Shown: piece after piece, positions 23,999-34,465 of the stretch
How positions within the stretch are numbered: position 1 is the stretch's first letter
Layout: each line of letters opens with the position of its first letter
DNA from: Deltaproteobacteria bacterium
GTDB lineage: Bacteria; Myxococcota; UBA727; VGSZ01
DNA length: 46,112 nucleotides
Assembly (NCBI GenBank): GCA_016874845.1
Contig: VGSZ01000012.1
Span: forward strand, 1-46,112
Direction of reading: 5' to 3'
Made by a program: the position numbers and the translations under genes
Notes under the pieces: generated by a model
What the model was told of the DNA's origin: nothing
The model's input: only the letters and a program-made list of their open reading frames with translations
Database searches by the model: none

Positions 23999-25213
23999 AT
24001 GAATCGTGACGAACGCCCCCCGCGCGCGCGCGTCGCCGACGGCGTCGCGTCGCTGCCGCGGCCAGCCTGGGATGCCCTCGTCGCCGACGTCGACAATCCC
24101 TTCGTCGAGCATGCGTTCCTGGCCCTGCTCGAGACGGCGGGCGCGGTGGGCGGCAAGACGGGCTGGAGTCCGCGGATCGTCGTCGTCGAAGACGACGCGG
24201 GCCGGCTGCTCGGCGCTGTCCCGGCGTACCGGCGGACCGACAGCTTCGGTGAGTTCGTCTTCGACCACGCGATCGCCGATGCGAGCCACCGGCTGCGCCG
24301 CCCCTATTACCCGAAGCTGACCGTTGCCGTGCCGTTCACGCCCGCCACCGGACCGCGCCTGCTGCGCCGGGACGAGGACGCCGAGCGCGTCGACCCGGTG
24401 TTGCACGCTGCGCTGGCGCAGCTGCAGGCCGACGAAGGCGCCTCGTCGACCCACGTGCTGTTCTGCACCGACGCCGAGGCGGAGCGCCTCGCCGGGCAAG
24501 GCTTTCGTCGCCGGGCCGGGCTGCAGTTCCACTGGCGCAACGACGGCTACGCCTCGTTCGACGACTTTCTGGCGCGCCTGCGCAGCGAGGACCGCAAGCA
24601 GATCCGGCGCGAGCGCCGCCGCGTCGTCGAGTCTGGTCTCGTCGTCGAGGTATGCGCCGGGAGCGACGTCCCGCCCTCGTGGTGGCCGCGGGTCTACGCG
24701 CTGTACGCGGGCATCTACGACCGGAAGTGGGGCCGCCCCTACCTGCCGCCGGCGTTCTTCGATGGCATCGCGAGCACGCTCGGCGACCGCGCCGTCGTCG
24801 CCGTCGCGCGCGACCCCGGTCGCCCGACCGACGACGATGTGGTGGCGATGACGTTGTCGTTCGAGAGGGGCCGCGCGCTGTACGGCCGCTCCTGGGGCAG
24901 CGACGTCGACGTGCCCGGTCTGCACTTCGAGCTCTGCTATTACGCGTTGCTCGAGCGGGCGATCGCGCGCGGCCAGACCCTCGTCGAGGCCGGCGCGCAA
25001 GGCGAGCACAAGCTCAAGCGCGGCTATCTTCCGTGCCTGACCCACAGCGTCCACCGCTTCGACGACGAGCGGCTCGACCACGCCGTCGCCCGCTTCTTCG
25101 CCGAGGAGCAATTGGCGCTGGCCGCCGAGCGTGCGGCGCTCGCCGCCCACGGGCCCTTCCGCAACGGCGCAGCGCCGACCTTGCCGCTCGTCGCCGGGCT
25201 GCCCCGAGGCTGA
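23999..25213 (+). CDS. FemAB-like GNAT-fold acyltransferase (peptidogalycan biosynthesis protein family)
   Basis: The 404-residue product matches the FemAB_like family (formerly DUF482; double GNAT fold). Visible landmarks are WDAL..NPFVEHAFLALLE near the start, YYPKLTVAVPFTPATG near 105, QFHWRNDGYASFDDFLARL and RKQIRRERRRV near 180-210, YDRKWGRPYL, LYGRSWG, and EAGAQGEHKLKRGYLP near 325-340. The family name suggests a cell-envelope role, but acceptor and donor are not proven. ATG 23999 or the adjacent GTG 23996 can start it. It lies 52 bp after aat. Confidence 0.9.
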   Translation: MNRDERPPRARVADGVASLPRPAWDALVADVDNPFVEHAFLALLETAGAVGGKTGWSPRIVVVEDDAGRLLGAVPAYRRTDSFGEFVFDHAIADASHRLRRPYYPKLTVAVPFTPATGPRLLRRDEDAERVDPVLHAALAQLQADEGASSTHVLFCTDAEAERLAGQGFRRRAGLQFHWRNDGYASFDDFLARLRSEDRKQIRRERRRVVESGLVVEVCAGSDVPPSWWPRVYALYAGIYDRKWGRPYLPPAFFDGIASTLGDRAVVAVARDPGRPTDDDVVAMTLSFERGRALYGRSWGSDVDVPGLHFELCYYALLERAIARGQTLVEAGAQGEHKLKRGYLPCLTHSVHRFDDERLDHAVARFFAEEQLALAAERAALAAHGPFRNGAAPTLPLVAGLPRG

Positions 25214-25282
25214 GGTTCGGGCGTCGACCCGCGCGACGGGCGAAGCTTGCGGCGAGGCTCGCGACTTGGCACGTTCGCGACC

Positions 25283-25480
25283 ATGCCTCTTCCGCCGCGG
25301 GTCATCGACGAGCTGCTACAAAAGCGCGCCCGCCGCGATGGAGAGGACCGCGCGCGGTTGGAGCGCATCGAGCTGTCGCAATTCGCCACCGCGGAGCGCG
25401 CCGACGAGAGCGCCCTGGCGGCCACCAACATCGTCGTCGCGCACATCTCGCCGGTGCTCGGCGGCGGGATCGCCCCGTAG
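25283..25480 (+). CDS. Small hypothetical protein (65 aa)
   Basis: This 65-residue frame has codon use like its neighbours, with strong GC at third positions. It sits on the coding strand between the FemAB-like gene (69 bp upstream) and the Smr-like gene (16 bp downstream). The product is a charged helix (LLQKRARRDGEDRARLERIELSQ split by position) followed by a hydrophobic C-terminus ending near GGGIAP. I do not recognise a family. The GTG/ATG choice is uncertain: ATG 25283 is preferred over the frame opening at 25247 because that extension overlaps no conserved feature. Confidence 0.55.
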   Translation: MPLPPRVIDELLQKRARRDGEDRARLERIELSQFATAERADESALAATNIVVAHISPVLGGGIAP

Positions 25481-25496
25481 CCGCCGCAGGATGACG

Positions 25497-26264
25497 ATGG
25501 GCACGCTCGAGGACCAGCTGAAGAAGTGGCGGCAGCAGCGGCCCGCGCCGGGCAAGGCGGGGGCCGCGTCCTCGTCGTCAGCGTCCTCGTCGTCAGCGTC
25601 CTCGTCGTCAGCGTCCTCGTCGTCAGCGTCCTCGTCGTCAGCGTCCTCGTCGTCAGCGTCCTCGTCGTCGGCCGGTGATGCCACGCGCAAGCGGCCGACG
25701 AAGAAGGACCCGTATCCGGCCTTCACCCTGCGGCGCGACGAGCCGGCGCCGAAGGCGGCGCCCCAGACGCAGACACCCGCGCCGCCGCCGCCCACCGACG
25801 CCGAGCTTTTCGCGCGCGCGCTGGACTCCGTCGAGCGCGACGTCGTGCTGCAGAAATTCGACGCTGGCGCAGCAGCGCCGTTGGCGCGCGGACGTTCGGC
25901 GCCGGTGACGGTGCCACCGAGTGACGAGGAGCTGTTCCGATCGTTCGTCGGCGACGCGCGTCCGACGCGCCCGACGGCGGCGAAGGCGCCGGCGGCGAAG
26001 GCGAAGGCGACGGCGCCGGGCGACGGCGCTGCCCTGCCGCGGCTGTCGGTGCGCGGGGCTGCGGTCGACATCGCGGCCCGTCGCCTGCGGGCGTTCCTCG
26101 ACGACGCTGTCCGTGGCGGGGCGAGCGCGGTGGTCGTCGAGGTCGACGCCGCCAGCGAAGCCGCGCTCGACGTCGCGCGGGGGCACGCCGCGGTGGCCGC
26201 GGTGCACGACGCCTCGCCGGCGCAGGGCGGCAAGGGTGCGCGCGTGCTGCGTCTGCGCGGCTGA
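25497..26264 (+). CDS. Smr-like domain protein with degenerate motifs and a Ser-rich repeat linker
   Basis: The product has 255 residues. A short charged N-terminus (LEDQLKKWRQQ) is followed by a Ser-Ser-Ser-Ser-Ala repeat linker (residues ~24-58), a basic stretch, two ELF segments (DAELFARAL and DEELFRSF) like those before Smr domains in small MutS-related proteins, and a C-terminal 75-residue module from LSVRG to VLRLRG. That module follows the Smr fold pattern, but the usual LDLHG reads LSVRG and the HGxG loop is missing, so nuclease activity is unlikely. ATG 25497 is preferred because AGGA precedes it by 5 bp; ATG 25491 is also possible. The Smr assignment is by pattern only. Confidence 0.7.
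   Translation: MGTLEDQLKKWRQQRPAPGKAGAASSSSASSSSASSSSASSSSASSSSASSSSASSSSAGDATRKRPTKKDPYPAFTLRRDEPAPKAAPQTQTPAPPPPTDAELFARALDSVERDVVLQKFDAGAAAPLARGRSAPVTVPPSDEELFRSFVGDARPTRPTAAKAPAAKAKATAPGDGAALPRLSVRGAAVDIAARRLRAFLDDAVRGGASAVVVEVDAASEAALDVARGHAAVAAVHDASPAQGGKGARVLRLRG
25566..25670. repeat. 15-bp tandem repeat, 7 copies
   Basis: Seven head-to-tail copies of GCGTCCTCGTCGTCA, identical except for the last base of the final copy, lie inside the Smr-like gene. Each unit encodes Ala-Ser-Ser-Ser-Ser. Near-perfect identity implies recent expansion or ongoing slippage. Confidence 0.98.
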
Positions 26265-26376
26265 GCGTCGACGGAGCGCTCCGTCCGCCGCCCCCCCCGC
26301 TCTCGCGCACGACGCGGGCACCCGAGCGGTCGCCGCCCGAGACGGAGCCTGCTAAGCGCCGCGGCGGAGGTCACCC

Positions 26377-27177
26377 GTGAACACCGACGCTCTCCCTCTG
26401 GTCACCGTCACCGAACACGACGTCGACGGCGCGCTGGCCCTCGTCCTGACGCTGGACCGCCCCGACGCAATGAACGCGCTGTCGCGGGCGTTGCTCGAGG
26501 CGTTGTGGGTCGAGGTCGAGAAGGCCGCCGTGCGGCGCGAGGTGCGCGCGTTGATCCTCGCCGGCAACGCGAAGGCCTTCTGCGCCGGCGCCGATCTGAA
26601 GGAGCGGGCGGGCATGAGCCCCGTCGAGGTGCGGGCGTTCCTGCGCCGCATCCGCGGGATCATGGATCTCGTCGAGCGCGTGCCGATGCCGACCATCGCC
26701 GCCATCGACGGGGTCGCCTTCGGCGGCGGCTGCGAGCTGGCGCTGGCCTGCGACCTGCGGGTGCTCGGCCGCGACGCGAAGATCGGGCTCACCGAGTGCG
26801 CGCTGGGGATCATCCCCGGCGCCGGGGGCACCCAGCGTCTGCCGCGCTTGATCGGCCCGGCGAAGGCGAAGGAGCTCATCTTCACCGCCCGCCGCCTCGA
26901 CGCCGCCACCGCCTTCGACGCAGGCCTCGCGAACCACGTCGTCGACGCTGGGCGCGCGCTCGACAAGGCCCTGTCGCTGGCGGCCGAGATCGGCAAGACG
27001 GCGCCGCTGGCGGTCGAGGCGGCGAAGGCGGCCATCGACGGCGGCTTGTCGACGGGGATCAGCGAAGGTCTGCTGCTCGAGGCGCGCGCCTACGAGGTCA
27101 CGCTGTACACCGAGGACCGCAAGGAGGCGCTGGCGGCGTTCGCCGCGAAGCGTCCGCCGCAGTTCGTGGGGCGCTGA
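26377..27177 (+). CDS. Enoyl-CoA hydratase family protein (both catalytic Glu present)
   Basis: The 266-residue crotonase-fold protein has the oxyanion-hole segment AFCAGADL (~68-74), GGGCELALACDLR with the first catalytic Glu at 120, and TECALGIIPGAGGTQRLPRL with the second Glu at 140. Length is normal. It resembles AUH/methylglutaconyl-CoA hydratase-like members, so hydration of an enoyl-CoA is expected; the acyl substrate is inferred only. GTG at 26377 follows a strong GGAGGT site. It is convergent with the minus catabolic operon, 41 bp from the DUF3105 gene, and may feed the same pathway. Confidence 0.93.
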   Translation: MNTDALPLVTVTEHDVDGALALVLTLDRPDAMNALSRALLEALWVEVEKAAVRREVRALILAGNAKAFCAGADLKERAGMSPVEVRAFLRRIRGIMDLVERVPMPTIAAIDGVAFGGGCELALACDLRVLGRDAKIGLTECALGIIPGAGGTQRLPRLIGPAKAKELIFTARRLDAATAFDAGLANHVVDAGRALDKALSLAAEIGKTAPLAVEAAKAAIDGGLSTGISEGLLLEARAYEVTLYTEDRKEALAAFAAKRPPQFVGR

Positions 27178-27218: not shown

Positions 27219-27776
27219 TCAGGGGCAGACGTTCTCGGGGGCGCGGTTGCGGCACGCCGTCGCGAACGCGAGCGTACGGTCGCGCGCGAGGACCCCGCCG
27301 TCGAGCGCGCCGGGCACCAGCACGACGTCGGCGGCGACGACAGCGACGGGATCGTCGAGCAGCGGGTCGCGGGTGAGCAGCGCGCGCGGGTGGCCGCACT
27401 CGGGGTCGTCGGGCAGGGCGTCGAACGCGGCGCGCAGCTCGTCCTTCGCGGTGGCCGAGGCGTCGTCGCCGACCAGAAAGACGACGCCGCCGTGCTCGAG
27501 GTTGTGCACCCACTGTCCGCGCTCGACGACGTCGTCGTGGACGCCCCAGCTCGCCCACACCGGGTAGTGCGGCCCCGACGACGGCGGGTTGGCTTCGTAG
27601 ACGTGGGCGCCGGGATCGTTCTCGTGCTTCCAGCTCTCGTTGTCCTGGAACACCGCGCCGTCGGGGGCGTCGCAGCTGCCCTCGAGCGGCTCGCCCTTGC
27701 AGGCGCCGCCACCGACGACGAGCGCCGCGGCGAAGGCGACCCGGCGCGACGCACCCGCGTTCACGGCGGCGCTCAC
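27219..27776 (-). CDS. DUF3105 family exported (lipo)protein
   Basis: The product has 185 residues. The N-terminus has Arg-Arg then a hydrophobic run ending GGGAC, probably a lipoprotein signal with a weak lipobox. The rest matches DUF3105: ANPPSSGPHY near 75, and WVHNLEHGGVVFL near 100, with conserved His residues that could bind metal. GTG at 27776 overlaps the stop of the upstream cleavage-enzyme gene as GTGA, so translation is coupled. A later GTG (MNAG-like start) is possible. The family's role is unknown; presence of a secreted protein at the end of an acyl-CoA operon is unusual. Confidence 0.85.
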   Translation of the reverse strand: MSAAVNAGASRRVAFAAALVVGGGACKGEPLEGSCDAPDGAVFQDNESWKHENDPGAHVYEANPPSSGPHYPVWASWGVHDDVVERGQWVHNLEHGGVVFLVGDDASATAKDELRAAFDALPDDPECGHPRALLTRDPLLDDPVAVVAADVVLVPGALDGGVLARDRTLAFATACRNRAPENVCP

Positions 27777-28639
27777 GACGGCTCGGGCGACAGCGACAGC
27801 AGCCGCCGCGCCTCGGCGATGTCGGCGACCTCGCGGCCGCACAGCCGCACGAGCTGCGCCGCCTGCTCGACGAGGGCGCCGTTGCTGGGCGCCATCGAGC
27901 CGTCGGGCAGGTAGAAGTTGTCCTCGAGGCCGACGCGGATGTTGCCGCCGAGGACGAGCGCCGAGGCGACCAGCCGCCACTGCTCCTTGCCGATCCCGAT
28001 CACCTCCCACGTCGCGTCGGCGGGGATGGTCTGCTTTTGCAGCTGCAGCGCCTCGATGGACGTCGGCAGGCCGCCCAGCACGCCCATGATGAAGCTGAAC
28101 TGCGTGGGCTTCTTCAGCTTGCCCATATCGTACAGCGGCCAGATCGAGTTGGTGTGGCCAGCGTCGAAGCACTCGAGCTCCGGCTTGACCCCGGCCTCGT
28201 TCATGACGTCGAGGAAGCGCTCGATCTTGCCGAAGGTGTTCGGAAAGACCACGTCGAACACGAACGACTTCCGCTTCGGCGAGTACTTCGCGTAGTTCAT
28301 CGTGCCCATGTTCAAGGCCGCGATCTCGGGGCGCAGCTCGCGGATGATCGCTGCCTGCATCGCGATGTCGTCGTCCATCGTCCCCGTCGAGAAATTAAGG
28401 ATGATGGGGCAGCGCTTGCGCACCTCCTCCTTGATCTGCCGGAACGTCTCGAGCTCCCACGTCGGCGCGCCGCCGTCGGTGCGGCCGTGGATGTGCACGA
28501 CGGTGGCGCCGGCGTCGTAGGCGCGCTTCGCTTCGTCGGCGATCTCGACCGGCGTGTAGGGGATGCCGGGGCACTGGTCGCGGTTCGCGAGCACGCCCGT
28601 CAGCGCCGCGGTGATGATCACCTTGTCCTGCAGTCCCAT
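27773..28639 (-). CDS. Beta-keto acid cleavage enzyme (BKACE/DUF849 family)
   Basis: BKACE enzymes condense a beta-keto acid with acetyl-CoA and cleave it to acetoacetate plus a new acyl-CoA. The 288-residue TIM barrel shows ITAALTG at the start, zinc-ligand histidines 49 and 51 (VVHIHGR), NFSTGT near 82-87, ELECFDAGH near 154-162, and IRVGLEDN with Arg235, Glu239 and Asp240. Where the characterised 3-keto-5-aminohexanoate enzyme has its amine-contacting Glu (residue 14 there, from memory), this one has Leu17, suggesting a substrate without that amine. The ATG at 28639 has AGGAG upstream. It lies 70 bp after the carboxylase gene. Confidence 0.93.
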
Positions 28640-28709
28640 GAGGGCTCCTGTCGTCGTAGTGTTCGTCGTCGTCGTAGTCGTGGTGTCGTCGTCGCGGCGT
28701 CGTCGCTGG
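28640..28709. repeat. GTC-triplet-rich spacer
   Basis: The 70-bp gap between the carboxylase and cleavage-enzyme genes is dominated by GTC/GTA/GTG triplets on the plus strand (ACG/GAC on the transcribed strand). It looks like a slippage-prone simple sequence rather than a gene. The AGGAG ribosome site of the downstream gene lies at its low-coordinate end. Confidence 0.6.
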
Positions 28710-30278
28710 TCAGACCGGCATGATCGCGTGCTTGCGTGGGGGCAGGTGGCGCCTCCGGCGCACCGCCGTGGACAGCGCGTCGATCAGCACGCGGCGCGTG
28801 TCGCGCGGGTCGATGACATCGTCGACGTGCGTGCGCGCCGCCGGGATGTAGGGATTGATCTGTTCGCGGAACGCCTCGACGAGACCGGCGCGGACATCGT
28901 CGGGGTTGTCGCTCGCCTCGATCTGCTTGCGGAACGCGATGTTCACCGCGCCCTCGGGGCCCATCACCGAGATCTCGGCGCACGGCCACGCCACGATCAG
29001 GTCGGGCTGGTAACCCTTGCCACACATCACGTAATAGCCGGCGCCGTAGCCCTTGCGCACGACGACGGTGAGCTTCGGCACCGTCGCCCGCGACACCGCG
29101 AACAGCATCTTGGCGCCGTGGCGGATGATGCCCTCCTTCTCGGTCTTCACGCCCACCATGAAGCCGGGGACGTCCTGCAGGAAGAGCAGCGGGATGCCGA
29201 AGGCGTCGCAGGTCTCGATGAACTTCGCCGCCTTGTCGGCGGGGTCGTTGGTCAGCACGCCCCCCAGGTGCTTGCTGTTGCTGGCGACGACACCCACGGG
29301 ACGGCCGTCGAGGCGGATGAGCACGCAGTGGATCGCCTGCCCCCACTTTGGCTTCACCTCGAGCAGCGGCCCGTCTTGATCGCGCAGCCGCTCGATGAGC
29401 CCGAGCATGTCCATCGGCGCGCGCGTGTTGTCGGGCACGAGGCCCGTGGCGTCGTCGATGCGGCGCGTGGGCGAATCCGTCGTCGCGTACCGCGGCGGCG
29501 CGTCGTCGCACGATGTCGGGTGGTACGACAGCCACGTCTTGATCGTGGCGATCATCTCTACGTCGTCCTTGACCTCGAGGTCGCCGACGCCGCTCTCGCG
29601 GCAGTGCACCTTGCTACCGCCGAGCTCTTCGGCGGTGACGTCGGCGCCCGTCGCGGCCTTCACCAGCGGCGGCCCGGCCAGCGCCATCGACGACGTGCCC
29701 TTCACCATCGGCACGAAGTCGGCGAGGCCGGGGACGTAGGCGGTGCCGGCGGCGCAGGGGCCCATCATCGCCGCCACCTGCGGGATGACGCCGGACATCA
29801 TCACCTGGTCGAAGAACATCTGGCCCGAGCCGGCGAACATCGCCGTCGCCGCCTCCTGCACGCGGGCGCCCGCCGAGTCGAGCAGCCAGACACACGGGAT
29901 GCGCCGCTCGAGGGCGAGCTCCCGCAGGCGGCCGCACTTGCGCTCGGTGTTCTCGCCGATGGTGCCGGCCATCACCGTGAAGTCGAACGCGATCACCGCC
30001 ACCGGCCGCCCGTCGACGAGGCCGGTGCCGCAGACGACGCCGTCGGCTGGCGTGTCACGGCCCGACATCATCGGCGACTCCGACGTGTGGTGGGCGTGGG
30101 CCATCAGCTCGACGAACGTGCTGACGCCGTCGCGCTTGTCGAAGAGCAGGTCGACGCGCTCGCGGCAGGTGAGCTTGCCGGCGGCGTGCTGCTTGGCGAC
30201 GGCAGCCTCGCCACCCATCTGCTGGATCTTTACGCGGCGGGCTTCGAGGTCGGTGATCTTGTCGTCCAGAGCGGTCAT
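28710..30278 (-). CDS. Acyl-CoA carboxylase beta (carboxyltransferase) subunit
   Basis: The product has 522 residues and two crotonase-like carboxyltransferase halves. N-domain landmarks are LTCRERVDLLFD, VCGTGLVDGRPV, DFTVMAGTIG, WLLDSAGARVQE and GPCAAGTAYVPGLADF. C-domain landmarks are NSKHLGGVL, LLFLQDVPGFMVG, RKGYGAGYYVMCG and VMGPEGAVNIAFR. It should carry CO2 from biotin to an acyl-CoA such as methylcrotonyl-, propionyl- or geranyl-CoA. The biotin carboxylase/carrier subunit it needs is absent from the operon and window. The ATG at 30278 has AGGA upstream. Neighbours suggest a branched-chain acyl-CoA, but the substrate cannot be read from the sequence. Confidence 0.95.
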   Translation of the reverse strand: MTALDDKITDLEARRVKIQQMGGEAAVAKQHAAGKLTCRERVDLLFDKRDGVSTFVELMAHAHHTSESPMMSGRDTPADGVVCGTGLVDGRPVAVIAFDFTVMAGTIGENTERKCGRLRELALERRIPCVWLLDSAGARVQEAATAMFAGSGQMFFDQVMMSGVIPQVAAMMGPCAAGTAYVPGLADFVPMVKGTSSMALAGPPLVKAATGADVTAEELGGSKVHCRESGVGDLEVKDDVEMIATIKTWLSYHPTSCDDAPPRYATTDSPTRRIDDATGLVPDNTRAPMDMLGLIERLRDQDGPLLEVKPKWGQAIHCVLIRLDGRPVGVVASNSKHLGGVLTNDPADKAAKFIETCDAFGIPLLFLQDVPGFMVGVKTEKEGIIRHGAKMLFAVSRATVPKLTVVVRKGYGAGYYVMCGKGYQPDLIVAWPCAEISVMGPEGAVNIAFRKQIEASDNPDDVRAGLVEAFREQINPYIPAARTHVDDVIDPRDTRRVLIDALSTAVRRRRHLPPRKHAIMPV

Positions 30279-30336
30279 CGGTGCGGTCCTGGGGCGAAGA
30301 GGCAGGTAGCGACGTCGTCGTCGCCGGCGCAGAAGG

Positions 30337-31122
30337 TCAGCGGCCCTTCCACTGCGGGTCGCGCTTCTCGAGGAAGGCGGTGACGCCCTCGGCGGCGTCC
30401 TCGAGCTGCAGGTTCAGCGTCAGCTGATCGCGCAGAAAGGCGAGCTTCTGCTCGAAGGGCATCTCGCGCTGCTGCACAACCGCGCGCTTGCCCAGGGCAA
30501 GCACCGCTGGCGACGAAGACGCCAGGCGCTTCGCTAGCGCGCGGGCCTCCTGCCGCACGTCGGCGCGCGGGACGACGCGGTTCACGACACCGAGCTCGAC
30601 GGCGCGCGCGCCCTGAACCTCGCTGCCGAGCAGCATCAGCTCCATCGCCGCCTTCTTCGGCAGCACCTCGTCGATGAGCGCGGCGATCATCATCGGGAAC
30701 AGCCCGCGCTTGACCTCGGGCGTGCCCATACGCGCGTCGTCAGCGGCGACGGCAAGATCGCAGACGAGCACGAGGCCGAAGCCGCCGCCGAGCGCGAGGC
30801 CGTTGACGGCGGCGACGGTGGGCTTCTTCAGGCGGCGCAGCGCCAGCAGCAGGTCGGCGAAGGCGCCGCGGGCCAGATGCTGCTCGAAGAAGCCGTCGCC
30901 AACGAGGCCGCCGCCCAGGTCGCCGCCGGCGCAGAACGCCTGCTTGTCGCCGTCGCCGGCGCCGGTCAGCACGACGACGCGGACGGCCTTGTCGTCGTCG
31001 GCGGCGCGCAGCGCGGCGAGCAGGGCGTCGACCAGCTCGGGCGACAACGCGTTGCGCCGCTCGGGACGGTTCAGGGTCAGCGTGCGGACGCCGTCGTCGT
31101 CGTTGGTGAGAAGGATGCTCAT
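30337..31122 (-). CDS. Enoyl-CoA hydratase/isomerase family protein lacking the first catalytic Glu
   Basis: The 261-residue crotonase-fold protein has AFCAGGDL (~62-69) for the oxyanion hole. In the active-site helix the motif reads GGGFGLVLVCD, with Gly116 where hydratases have Glu; the second position keeps Glu136 (TPEVKRGLFP). One Glu alone is typical of enoyl-CoA isomerases or other crotonase chemistries, so simple hydration is questionable. The ATG at 31122 has GAGGA 8 bp upstream. It lies 30 bp after the stop of one acyl-CoA dehydrogenase gene and 58 bp before the carboxylase gene. Confidence 0.93.
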   Translation of the reverse strand: MSILLTNDDDGVRTLTLNRPERRNALSPELVDALLAALRAADDDKAVRVVVLTGAGDGDKQAFCAGGDLGGGLVGDGFFEQHLARGAFADLLLALRRLKKPTVAAVNGLALGGGFGLVLVCDLAVAADDARMGTPEVKRGLFPMMIAALIDEVLPKKAAMELMLLGSEVQGARAVELGVVNRVVPRADVRQEARALAKRLASSSPAVLALGKRAVVQQREMPFEQKLAFLRDQLTLNLQLEDAAEGVTAFLEKRDPQWKGR

Positions 31123-31152
31123 GCCGTTGTCCTCGTGGCGGGTGTCCCGCGC

Positions 31153-32295
31153 TCAGCCGTCGAGCAGGGCGCGGGCGATCAGCTCGCGCTGGATCTCGCT
31201 GGTGCCTTCGCCGATTGGGCCAAGCCGCGCGTCGCGGAACAGGCGCTCGACGACGAAGTCGTCGGTGTAGCCCCAGCCGCCGTGGATCTGCACCGCCATG
31301 TCGGTGACGCGCACGGCCATCTCGGTGGCGTAGGTCTTCGCCACCGAGGGCAGCACACCGAGGTCTTCGCCCTGCGCGAGGCGCCACGCCACCTGCCGCG
31401 CCATCAGCCGCGCGCCGTCGATCTCGACCTTCATGTCGGCAATCTTGAAGTGCACTGCCTGCAGCCGGCCGATGGGCTTGCCGAACGCGCGGCGCTCCAT
31501 CGCGTACCTCTTCGACGCCTCGTAGGCGGCGTCGGCGATCCCGAGCGCGAAGTGGCACATTCCCACGCGCCCGAGCTCTAGCGTCTGCATCGCCTGGAGG
31601 AACCCCTGGCCGACCTCGCCGACGACGTCATCGTCGGACAGCCGGACGTCGTCGAACGTCAGGCCGCCGGTGGCCGAGCCGCGCAGGCCCATCTTCTTGT
31701 AAGGCCTGCTGCGCGACACGCCGCGCAGCGACAGGTCGACGACGAACATCGTCACGCCGCCGACGCCGGCGTCCTTGTCGGTGACGGCGAAGACGACGGC
31801 GACATCGGCGACGGGCGCGTTGGTGATCAAGGCCTTGTCGCCGCCGAGGACCCACCCGCCAGCGACCTTCCGCGCCTGACACTGGATCGACGCTGCGTCG
31901 GTGCCGGCGCCCGGCTCGGTCAGGGCGAAGCAGCCGACCTTGTCGCCGTCGATGATTGGCTTCAGCCAGCGCTGCTTCTGCGCGGCGGTGCCGAAGCGGG
32001 CCAGCGGCGCGCCGCACAAGCCGATCGAGGCGCCCGTCGACAGGAACGTCGCCGCGCAGGCCTTCGCCAGCGACTCCTGCATCATCGCCCGCACGACCCA
32101 CGGTACCGTGAGCCCGCCGTCGGCCTCGGCGTGGTGGACCTTGAAGAAGCCCATGTCGGCGAGCTCGCGCCACGATTCCGGCGGGATCACGCCGGTGTGA
32201 TCCACGGCGTGGGCGCGCGGCGCGATCTTCTCCTGACAGAAGCGGTCGAAGGCCGCGGCGGCGGCTGTGTCTTCGGCGGGGATCGAGAGGTCCAT
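31153..32295 (-). CDS. Acyl-CoA dehydrogenase (canonical catalytic Glu)
   Basis: The 380-residue flavoprotein oxidises an acyl-CoA to a trans-2-enoyl-CoA and passes electrons to ETF. It has FALTEPGAGTDA (FAD/substrate), a KALITNAPVAD segment, MGLRGSATGGLTFDDV, RRAFGKPIGRLQAV and QIHGGWGYTDDF, and ends with GEGTSEIQRELIARALL, where Glu363 is the canonical catalytic base of short/medium-chain members. The ATG at 32295 has AAGGA upstream. It follows the first dehydrogenase gene by 44 bp. Confidence 0.95.
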   Translation of the reverse strand: MDLSIPAEDTAAAAAFDRFCQEKIAPRAHAVDHTGVIPPESWRELADMGFFKVHHAEADGGLTVPWVVRAMMQESLAKACAATFLSTGASIGLCGAPLARFGTAAQKQRWLKPIIDGDKVGCFALTEPGAGTDAASIQCQARKVAGGWVLGGDKALITNAPVADVAVVFAVTDKDAGVGGVTMFVVDLSLRGVSRSRPYKKMGLRGSATGGLTFDDVRLSDDDVVGEVGQGFLQAMQTLELGRVGMCHFALGIADAAYEASKRYAMERRAFGKPIGRLQAVHFKIADMKVEIDGARLMARQVAWRLAQGEDLGVLPSVAKTYATEMAVRVTDMAVQIHGGWGYTDDFVVERLFRDARLGPIGEGTSEIQRELIARALLDG

Positions 32296-32339
32296 GGTGA
32301 GGTCCTTGAATGGGGCGGCGACGACATCGGGGCCGTCGC

Positions 32340-33512
32340 TCAGAAGCCGATCTCGAGCTCGCTGCGCGCGATGATTCCGCGCTGGATCTCGCTGCTGCCG
32401 GCGCCGATGGTGGTGAGAATCGCGTCGCGAAGACTGCGTTCTACATGATATTCTTTTGTATAGCCGACGCCGCCGAGGACCTGGATGGCGTCGCGCGCCG
32501 TCTTCTGCGCCGCCTCGGACACCTGCACCTTGGCCACCGCGGCATCGACGAGCGGGGGATCGTCACCGCCGTCGTTCATGGAGTCGAGCTGGTACGCGAC
32601 GCGGTGGATGAGGTTCCGCCCGATCTCGTAGCGGATCTGCATGTCGGCGATCATGTGGCGCACCGCCTGAAACTTCGCGATGGGCCGGTTGAACTGCACG
32701 CGCTCGTTGGCGTAGCGGCAGACCGTGTCGATGTTGGCGCGCTGGCCACCCAGGGCGCCGGCGAGCATCGTGCTGCGCTCCCAGCCGAGGATGAGCTTGG
32801 CGGTGCCGACGAAGCCGCTGTTCAGGTCGCCGAGCAGGTTCTCCTCGGGGACCTCGCAGTCTTCGAACAGGATCTCGGCGGTCTTCGAGGTGTTCATGCC
32901 CATCTTCTCGATGCGCTGCCCCACCTTGAAGCCCGGGGAGTCGGCGTCGACGAGGAACGTCGAGATGCCGAACGCCTTCGCCTCGGGCTCGGTCACCGCG
33001 GTGACGACGAAGTGGTGCGCGATGGGTCCGTTGGTGATCCACATCTTGCTGCCATTCAGGATGTACTTTTCGCCCTGCTTCACCGCGCGGGTCTTCATCG
33101 CCGCCGCGTCGCTGCCCGAGCCCGCCTCGCTCAGGCAGAAGGCGCCCAACCACTCGCCGCTGCACATCTTCGGCAGGTAGCGCTGCTTCTGCGCCTCGGT
33201 GCCGAGCTTCCAGATCGGCACGCCGCACAGGATGGTTGACGCGCCCCACGCCATCGCGAGGCCGCCGTCGTGGCCGCCGTGGACGAAGCCCTCCTGCGCC
33301 AGACACGTCTCGAGGGCCGACAGGCCGGTGCCGCCGTACACCTCGGGGAAGGGGGCGCCGACGAGTCCCGCTGCGGCCATCTTCTTCCACAGCGCGTCGT
33401 CCCAGCGCTCATGCTTGTCGCGTTCGAGCACCGTCGGGAACACCTCGCGCGCGCCGAACTCCCGCGCGGCGTCGTAGACGGCTTGTTGGTCCTTCGTGAT
33501 TGCGAAGTGCAT
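32340..33512 (-). CDS. Acyl-CoA dehydrogenase, isovaleryl/long-chain-type catalytic base
   Basis: The 390-residue product has FCLSEAGSGSDAAAM, KMWITNGPIAHHF, MGMNTSKTAEILFEDCEVP, ANERVQFNRPIAKFQAV and QVLGGVGYTKEY. Near the C-terminus it reads IGAGSSEIQRG, with Ala371 where most family members have the catalytic Glu. An alternative Glu245 (LGWERSTMLAG) sits where isovaleryl-CoA and long-chain dehydrogenases place their base. This supports a branched-chain or long-chain substrate. The ATG at 33512 has GGAG upstream. It is the first enzyme gene after tetR, 126 bp from it. Confidence 0.95.
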   Translation of the reverse strand: MHFAITKDQQAVYDAAREFGAREVFPTVLERDKHERWDDALWKKMAAAGLVGAPFPEVYGGTGLSALETCLAQEGFVHGGHDGGLAMAWGASTILCGVPIWKLGTEAQKQRYLPKMCSGEWLGAFCLSEAGSGSDAAAMKTRAVKQGEKYILNGSKMWITNGPIAHHFVVTAVTEPEAKAFGISTFLVDADSPGFKVGQRIEKMGMNTSKTAEILFEDCEVPEENLLGDLNSGFVGTAKLILGWERSTMLAGALGGQRANIDTVCRYANERVQFNRPIAKFQAVRHMIADMQIRYEIGRNLIHRVAYQLDSMNDGGDDPPLVDAAVAKVQVSEAAQKTARDAIQVLGGVGYTKEYHVERSLRDAILTTIGAGSSEIQRGIIARSELEIGF

Positions 33513-33638: not shown

Positions 33639-34382
33639 TCAGCTGGTCGGGCGGTTGTGCGGGCCGTCGCGCTCGGCCCGCTGCAAGTTGCCGAGCAAGG
33701 CGCGCTGCACCATCGCGAGCAGCGTGTGCTTCATCTGTTCGAGGGTGATGCCCACCTGCACCTTGCTGCGCGCGCCCTGGTTCGTCAGCACAAACGAGAC
33801 GAATGCCGTCTCGAGCGTGCCGAGGAAGATGACGCTCATCGCCAGCGGGTCGAGACCCTCGTACAGCTCGCCGCTCTTGCGGCCGTCCTGAAAGATGCGC
33901 GCGACAGAGCGGAACACGCCCGTCACGGCGGGGTTGTCGAGGGCCTCGCCGAGCCGTGCGTTGCGGCCGAACTCGAGCACGAGCACCTTGACGGCGAGCG
34001 GAAACATCTCGAAGGCCTGAAACGCGAGCTCGACGATCTGCCGGAGCTTCTCATACATGCCGATGCCCGGGGTCTCGGCGACGTCAGCGACGGCCTTCGC
34101 GAAGACGCCCCAGTTGGTGTCGAAGACGCTCGCGAGCAGCCCGTCCTTGTTGCCGTAGTAGTGGTAGACGAGCCCGTAGGCGACGCCGGCCTCCTCGGCG
34201 ACGTCGGAGATGCGGCAGCCGTGGTAGCCCTTCTCGGCGAAGACCTTCACCGCCGCCCTGAGGATCTCTTTGCGCCGGTCGTCACGCGGGCCGTCCGACC
34301 GTGCCGCGGGCGACCGCGGTCGCTTGCTGGCCCGCGGGGGCGCCTCGTCGGGGGTCGCGACTCGTCCGCTCCGGGGGGGCAT
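33639..34382 (-). CDS. TetR family transcriptional regulator
   Basis: The product has 247 residues. A basic, Pro-rich N-terminal tail of about 35 residues precedes the TetR helix-turn-helix (RRKEILRAAVKVFAEKGYHG, ISDVAEEAGVAYGLVYHYYGNKDGLL by position ~37-85). The C-terminal ligand domain is helical, with a TLETAFVSFVL stretch. ATG 34382 is preferred to ATG 34412 because CGGAG lies 8 bp upstream of it. It probably represses the acyl-CoA operon starting at 33512 and perhaps itself; a palindrome at 34448-34465 is the best candidate site. The ligand is probably an acyl-CoA, by context only. Confidence 0.93.
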   Translation of the reverse strand: MPPRSGRVATPDEAPPRASKRPRSPAARSDGPRDDRRKEILRAAVKVFAEKGYHGCRISDVAEEAGVAYGLVYHYYGNKDGLLASVFDTNWGVFAKAVADVAETPGIGMYEKLRQIVELAFQAFEMFPLAVKVLVLEFGRNARLGEALDNPAVTGVFRSVARIFQDGRKSGELYEGLDPLAMSVIFLGTLETAFVSFVLTNQGARSKVQVGITLEQMKHTLLAMVQRALLGNLQRAERDGPHNRPTS

Positions 34383-34447
34383 GTGGACACTCCGGTCGAC
34401 GGGTGGGAACATCGACGAGGAAACGGCAGGGCGCCGGCGCGCTGTCG

Positions 34448-34465
34448 ATTGACTTGGATGTCAAT
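34448..34465. promoter_or_regulatory. Candidate TetR operator: palindrome ATTGAC-N6-GTCAAT
   Basis: A perfect inverted repeat with 6-bp arms and a 6-bp spacer lies 66 bp upstream of the tetR start and over the annotated start of the divergent HEAT-repeat gene. Each arm also contains a -35-like hexamer: TTGACA on the minus strand and TTGACT on the plus strand. Size and location suit a TetR dimer. Binding is inferred. Confidence 0.5.

Follow-up and report, generated by a model that had tools for sequence, protein, structure and literature searches.

The window analysed here is a stretch of 46,112 nucleotides from a Deltaproteobacteria bacterium (GTDB lineage Bacteria; Myxococcota; UBA727; VGSZ01; contig VGSZ01000012.1 of GenBank assembly GCA_016874845.1), and the element of interest is an operon for acyl-CoA degradation that includes a gene for a beta-keto acid cleavage enzyme (BKACE). 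Seven co-directional genes lie on the minus strand. A TetR-family, FadR-like regulator (33639-34412; Pfam TetR_N) is followed by two acyl-CoA dehydrogenases, ACD1 (32340-33512) with the isovaleryl-type position of the catalytic Glu and ACD2 (31153-32295) with the canonical catalytic Glu, and by a one-Glu crotonase (30337-31122). The next gene encodes the carboxyltransferase (CT) subunit of an acyl-CoA carboxylase, which is gamma-carboxylase-like with a predicted open acyl pocket (28710-30278; Pfam Carboxyl_trans, 506 bits), and is followed by the BKACE, the proposed C-C cleaving enzyme in the position of 3-hydroxy-3-methylglutaryl-CoA (HMG-CoA) lyase (27773-28639; Pfam PF05853, 316 bits against a cut-off of 24.8), and a secreted DUF3105 protein (27219-27776; Pfam, 62.5 bits). 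The intergenic gaps from TetR to DUF3105 are 126, 44, 30, 58, 70 and -4 bases, the DUF3105 open reading frame (ORF) overlapping the BKACE stop by 4 bases. A scan of the gaps within the operon found no terminator-like sites, and a sigma-70 promoter scan, which is uninformative in a GC-rich genome, gave no match. The six genes downstream of the regulator had been listed in an initial annotation of this DNA, and all six were found at those positions with Pfam matches far above cut-off. Its assignment of an isovaleryl-type and a canonical dehydrogenase and of a crotonase with a single catalytic Glu is borne out by the motifs, namely WER in helix G and IGAGSSEI in ACD1 (the isovaleryl-type pattern), IGEGTSEI in ACD2, and GGGFGL in place of GGxxE in the crotonase.

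The order TetR-ACD1-ACD2-crotonase-CT-BKACE is kept at three other loci (L006, L007 and L075), and BKACE orthologues with 84-90% identity occur in every other genome of the same genus and the same family that was examined. The initial annotation had proposed that gene neighbourhoods be compared across this BKACE clade. A scan of named genomes returned 74 loci with BKACE relatives, several of them on contigs too short for the neighbours to be judged; a crotonase gene lies within 1.5 kb of the BKACE gene in 56 of the 74 and a CT gene within 3.5 kb in 40. The CT-crotonase-BKACE association (hereafter the module) recurs across several phyla, spanning Myxococcota, Chloroflexota, Bacillota, Thermodesulfobacteriota and Actinomycetota. 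A biotin carboxylase gene directly precedes the module in Chloroflexota, Bacillota and a Desulfovibrio assembly, and an acyl-CoA synthetase gene follows it in Bacillota and Desulfovibrio. CT and BKACE are fused in frame as a single ORF of 824 residues at locus L074. The genome family f8 (L163, L166 and L168) has an operon of the order ACD1-ACD2-CT-biotin carboxylase-carrier-crotonase-BKACE. Since the arrangement recurs in distantly related microbes, it probably represents an undescribed route for larger branched acids; no description of a BKACE paired with a gamma-carboxylase was found in the open-access literature searched.

Several other observations were made on these neighbourhoods. At L007, 1.7 kb separate CT and BKACE (L007:7293-9000) and hold an ORF of 538 codons, the gene call at L007:7349-8965 being doubtful. 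Plasmid pOT1-4 of the cultured bacterium Haematobacter massiliensis (L183:8385-16882) carries genes for a CT, a biotin carboxylase, two crotonases, an acyl-CoA dehydrogenase and a BKACE with an N-Y-x-K motif, adjoining thiolase, AMP-binding and branched-chain-type ABC transporter genes. Chloroflexota loci also have, near the module, a further BKACE paralogue that is only distantly related, at about 36% identity (L046:5719-6669, L053:13745-14671 and L047:7070-8020), and the aligned copies from L046 and L053 have no N-Y-x-K.

The CT motifs GFMVG, CAAGTAYVPG and YGAGYYVMCG match those of 3-methylcrotonyl-CoA carboxylase (MCC) and of the type represented by a second CT of this genome, encoded on contig C121, and the active-site motifs of propionyl-CoA carboxylase (PCC), GFLPG..QE, CAGG(A)VYSP and YGGAY..M, are not present in it. 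In MCC, Phe191, which is Gly in geranyl-CoA carboxylase (GCC), decides the fit of a bulky acyl group, as established by structure and mutagenesis (PMC4673880). The CT of the window has Ser in this column, lacks a 3-residue insertion and has a short N terminus. Across the CTs compared, the column holds Phe in 4 of 4 MCCs linked to HMG-CoA lyase, Ala in 4 of 4 enzymes of the C121 type, and Ser or Thr in all 44 BKACE-linked CTs of the module clade; it holds Gly in the three CTs of f8, in the three of a lineage B (L165, L169 and L170), in that of H. massiliensis (L183), and in a haloarchaeal CT of the C121 lineage beside a BKACE at L070. From this pattern we infer that the CT substrate is bulkier than 3-methylcrotonyl-CoA.

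Phylogenetically, the module CTs form their own clade outside MCC (support 99/97 in one tree and 98/96 in the other), sister to PCC (84/50 in one and 100/99 in the other), and they have no N-terminal helix (about 30 residues), a feature that separates MCC and GCC from PCC (PMC4673880). The overall profile of the window CT also scores nearest to propionyl-CoA/methylmalonyl-CoA enzymes. Tree, helix and score together raise the alternative that the CT is a PCC-related alpha-carboxylase or decarboxylase, that some other acid is degraded by beta-oxidation, and that the BKACE substrate is unrelated to the CT product. This explanation appears improbable, as the active-site motifs are those of a gamma-carboxylase, CT and BKACE are fused at L074, and the CT place in the f8 operon is taken by a CT of the MCC lineage, which has 56-58% identity to true MCC and a dedicated biotin carboxylase in the same operon. 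Since the f8 operon holds such a CT, an MCC-lineage gamma-carboxylase can evidently fill the CT slot, and module-type and MCC-type CTs would interchange; this substitution is in our judgement the strongest argument on the role of the CT. The motifs and the f8 exchange weaken the case for a propionyl-type carboxylase that the profile scores had suggested.

The crotonase lacks Glu144 and keeps Glu164, with a one-residue deletion as in the LiuC hydratase of canonical liu operons, to which it is about 30% identical with the same residue pattern. In genome G028, which carries both the BKACE module and a complete MCC/HMG-CoA-lyase operon, the crotonases of the two are 88% identical. On the strength of the LiuC-like residues and this pair, the module crotonase is a probable 3-alkylglutaconyl-CoA hydratase. 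ACD1 is only 37% identical to the isovaleryl-CoA dehydrogenase of a liu operon.

The Zn ligands H49, H51 and E239 and the catalytic residues E156, R235 and D240 of the BKACE are kept in 75 of 75 module BKACEs; the conserved catalytic Glu corresponds to E171 of BKACE15, proven by mutation to be the catalytic base (PMC11961710). The NCBIfam model of Kce, the BKACE of lysine fermentation, gives the window protein 266 bits, below the cut-off of 382. Glu14 of Kce, which we take to bind the amino group of the substrate, is replaced by Leu17 in the window BKACE and by Leu, Ala, Val or Ile in all 75 module sequences, and because of this replacement the protein is classed, on its residues, as other than a lysine-fermentation Kce. 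An N-Y-x-K motif at positions 115-118, after an active-site strand, occurs in the module and lineage B BKACEs, with one variant (TYAK in L156). It is absent from 10 controls (two Kce, three second-copy Chloroflexota and five plasmid BKACEs) and from three aligned PDB chains. Lineage B was retrieved by whole-protein search, so the motif is unbiased there.

The initial annotation had argued that leucine degradation would need a biotin carboxylase subunit and HMG-CoA lyase, both absent. That is correct for the operon and incorrect for the genome (94.8% complete), in which family searches counted three CTs and a single copy each of biotin carboxylase, BKACE and HMG-CoA lyase. The search for separate liu/mcc-type genes that it had recommended thus yielded HMG-CoA lyase, biotin carboxylase and the C121 CT (L087:1572-3146, minus strand); no canonical MCC beta subunit was found in the window genome. 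The C121 CT shares 65% identity with the corresponding subunit from the HMG-CoA lyase-crotonase-CT operon of G020 and has orthologues with 66-89% identity in six other module genomes. In G001 and G003 a CT of this type lies inside mevalonate-pathway clusters, in G001 also with a small biotin carrier protein, and from this context the C121-type enzyme would be a 3-methylcrotonyl-CoA carboxylase feeding HMG-CoA. The clustered CTs of two related genomes (L118:6849-8384 and L119:6615-8144) lie among genes for HMG-CoA reductase, mevalonate kinase and decarboxylase. The linkage suggests that isoprenoid synthesis in these bacteria draws on HMG-CoA derived from leucine. A convergent neighbour of the window operon, the two-Glu crotonase ECH2 (26377-27177, plus strand), shares 49% identity with the G020 operon's crotonase and takes the same place in L007; it may be the hydratase of the separate leucine-type route.

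These genes bear on the explanation that the operon is itself a pathway for leucine or isovalerate, in which the CT acts as 3-methylcrotonyl-CoA carboxylase and the BKACE merely stands in for HMG-CoA lyase, so that R in the scheme given below would be methyl. The gene-by-gene match to liu operons, the isovaleryl-type ACD1, a genome without any canonical MCC beta subunit, and the lack of HMG-CoA lyase both in f8 and among the other module genomes (9 of 31) would all fit it. It is nevertheless unlikely, given the HMG-CoA lyase of the window genome, the C121 CT with its similarity to the G020 enzyme and its orthologues in mevalonate clusters, the Ser rather than Phe in the pocket, and the complete MCC/HMG-CoA-lyase operon that G028 has besides its module. 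Since HMG-CoA lyase and another CT, of leucine type, are encoded elsewhere in the genome, the operon is read as a second route parallel to the leucine-type one. The argument for a leucine pathway with missing parts fell on the same two genes and was abandoned as the principal interpretation.

Methyl branches at the beta carbon, a frequent feature of acids of terpenoid or lipid origin, prevent ordinary beta-oxidation. In the route proposed here, ACD1 and/or ACD2 would convert a beta-branched acyl-CoA to the enoyl-CoA, and the CT would carboxylate the gamma (methyl) carbon with the help of a biotin carboxylase and a carrier whose genes lie outside the operon. Hydration of the carboxylated product by the one-Glu crotonase would give 3-hydroxy-3-R-glutaryl-CoA, in which R is larger than methyl, and cleavage of the HMG-CoA-lyase type would then yield acetyl-CoA and R-CO-CH2-COOH, the pair of substrates from which a BKACE would form acetoacetate and R-CO-CoA. 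With R as methyl the BKACE reaction would be degenerate, which would make it dispensable for leucine degradation but necessary for a bulkier acid. On balance, the operon is probably a variant of leucine/acyclic-terpene-type degradation with the BKACE in the place of HMG-CoA lyase and R larger than methyl. Support is good for the class of pathway, and the exact reaction of the BKACE and the substrate of the route are inferences. The core idea of the initial annotation, a variant route for a branched or unusual acid, is retained as a leucine-like acyl-CoA pathway for another branched acid with a BKACE in the lyase position, and its prediction of acetoacetate as one product is likely, being expected from canonical BKACE chemistry.

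The BKACE may perform the retro-aldol step alone, or only the acetoacetate-forming step where HMG-CoA lyase exists, as it does here. Of 31 module genomes, 22 have HMG-CoA lyase above cut-off, the window genome among them, and nine do not (four Chloroflexota, two Bacillota, two haloarchaea and the genome with the L074 fusion). None of the four f8 genomes (98, 90, 100 and 70% complete) has it. AtuA (PF07287) was absent from 16 of 17 genomes searched, among them the window genome and three f8 genomes, and the CitE-like family gave only weak matches in three f8 genomes, likely of pyruvate-kinase type, with no credible full-length lyase. In f8 the BKACE would thus be the only lyase candidate left in the operon. 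A division of labour in which HMG-CoA lyase or another lyase carries out the retro-aldol step and the BKACE only converts beta-keto acid and acetyl-CoA to acetoacetate and acyl-CoA is compatible with the route above and quite possible, if somewhat short of probable. The intact canonical catalytic residues and the 22 genomes with HMG-CoA lyase agree with it, as does the pathway proposed for the window genome, in which HMG-CoA lyase could share the cleavage work; the f8 genomes, with neither HMG-CoA lyase, AtuA nor a credible CitE-type lyase, do not, and nor do the Chloroflexota, the two Bacillota and the fusion-bearing genome without HMG-CoA lyase. More tentatively, and rather doubtfully, the N-Y-x-K BKACEs may be bifunctional, a single site catalysing retro-aldol cleavage of 3-hydroxy-3-alkylglutaryl-CoA and then transfer to give acetoacetate and a shortened acyl-CoA. 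The statement of the initial annotation that a BKACE replaces the lyase step stands as to its position in a leucine-like operon and is weakened by the genomic HMG-CoA lyase.

A number of points weigh against the proposed route. The presence of HMG-CoA lyase in the window genome means that the BKACE need not be the lyase there, absences in metagenome assemblies may be gaps, and we know of no BKACE for which retro-aldol cleavage has been described. BKACE loci in Planctomycetota and Calescibacterium are without CT or crotonase. To the sister position of the module CTs to PCC and their missing helix is added the small, though consistent, sample behind the pocket correlation, which comprises about four BKACE-linked CT lineages against two others. 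The module loci were fetched with peptides that included NMGTMNYA, so Tyr116 is biased in the module set. Finally, gene content, order, conservation, catalytic and pocket residues, the fusion and the lack of known lyases in relatives were observed, and every chemical step of the model is deduced from them.

The TetR gene is next to the operon and co-directional with it in L006 (69% identity), L007 (76%) and L075 (47%), and the best NCBIfam match of its product is Bacillus FadR (82 bits, below cut-off). A palindrome, TTGAC-N6-GTCAA, is matched exactly by TTGACATCCAAGTCAA (minus strand; 34449-34464), a putative TetR operator located 37 bases upstream of the TetR ORF. The palindrome has seven matches in 501 kb of related loci versus none after shuffling, and six of the seven are directly upstream of a TetR gene (one in the window, two each in L006 and L075, and one in L152), the remaining site (L078) not being before a TetR gene. 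The TetR gene was counted into the unit because in L006 its counterpart opens the operon and because the TetR-type palindrome lies upstream of it, and it is the probable first gene here; the repressor probably controls the unit.

DUF3105, taken by the initial annotation as part of the operon, is present in the window and otherwise follows the BKACE only in L007. It is absent from L006 and L075, was rejected as a conserved component, and is regarded as a lineage-specific accessory. Elsewhere in the window, overlapping ORFs at 25131-26264 and 25316-26374 contain a repeat run that reads SSSSA on the plus strand or DADDE on the minus strand.

If the route is correct, the combination of gamma-carboxylase and BKACE would assign a function to a large, so far unassigned BKACE clade, N-Y-x-K together with an open-pocket CT would serve as a sequence marker for finding the route, and the route would offer a substitute for HMG-CoA lyase. 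Were the bifunctional reading also true, it would add an undescribed lyase and a widespread means of removing beta-methyl branches, for example from isoprenoid acids, in aerobic and anaerobic bacteria.

The set used for comparison was the liu operon, which encodes isovaleryl-CoA dehydrogenase, MCC beta, the LiuC hydratase, MCC alpha and HMG-CoA lyase (L095 and L096). The window operon shares with it a TetR regulator, an isovaleryl-type dehydrogenase, a CT, a one-Glu crotonase as putative hydratase, a lyase position that comes last and acetoacetate as an expected product, but it has a BKACE for HMG-CoA lyase, an extra canonical dehydrogenase and no biotin carboxylase. Unlike the MCC beta subunit of liu, its CT belongs to a clade of its own, has Ser at the Phe position of the pocket, and lacks both the 3-residue insertion and the N-terminal helix; it is likewise outside the PCC clade and without PCC motifs, though sister to PCC. 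The proposed gamma-carboxylation of a beta-methyl-branched enoyl-CoA, with hydration next, resembles the atu/geranyl-CoA carboxylase pathway (PMC4673880, PMC4847356), and like GCC the CT has a small pocket residue and no insertion, but the residue is Ser where GCC has Gly. Unlike atu, the operon has no AtuA, no GCC N-terminal helix in its CT and no citronellol or citronellal dehydrogenase genes, and it contains a BKACE. The operon appears to work like the liu and atu pathways and yet belongs to neither, because HMG-CoA lyase is missing from the operon, Phe191 and the N-terminal helix are missing from its CT, and AtuA is absent. The BKACE agrees with Kce and BKACE15 (PDB 2y7d, 8rio and 9hnf; PMC11961710) in family profile, Zn ligands and the catalytic Glu, Arg and Asp, and differs from them in the hydrophobic residue at the Kce Glu14 position, an N-Y-x-K-Y motif with an inserted loop, and its genomic link to gamma-carboxylases. 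A precedent for a non-homologous enzyme at the HMG-CoA lyase step is provided by Rv2498c, an (R)-HMG-CoA lyase of the CitE-like (HpcH/HpaI) family, which is unrelated to BKACE (PMC6689899).

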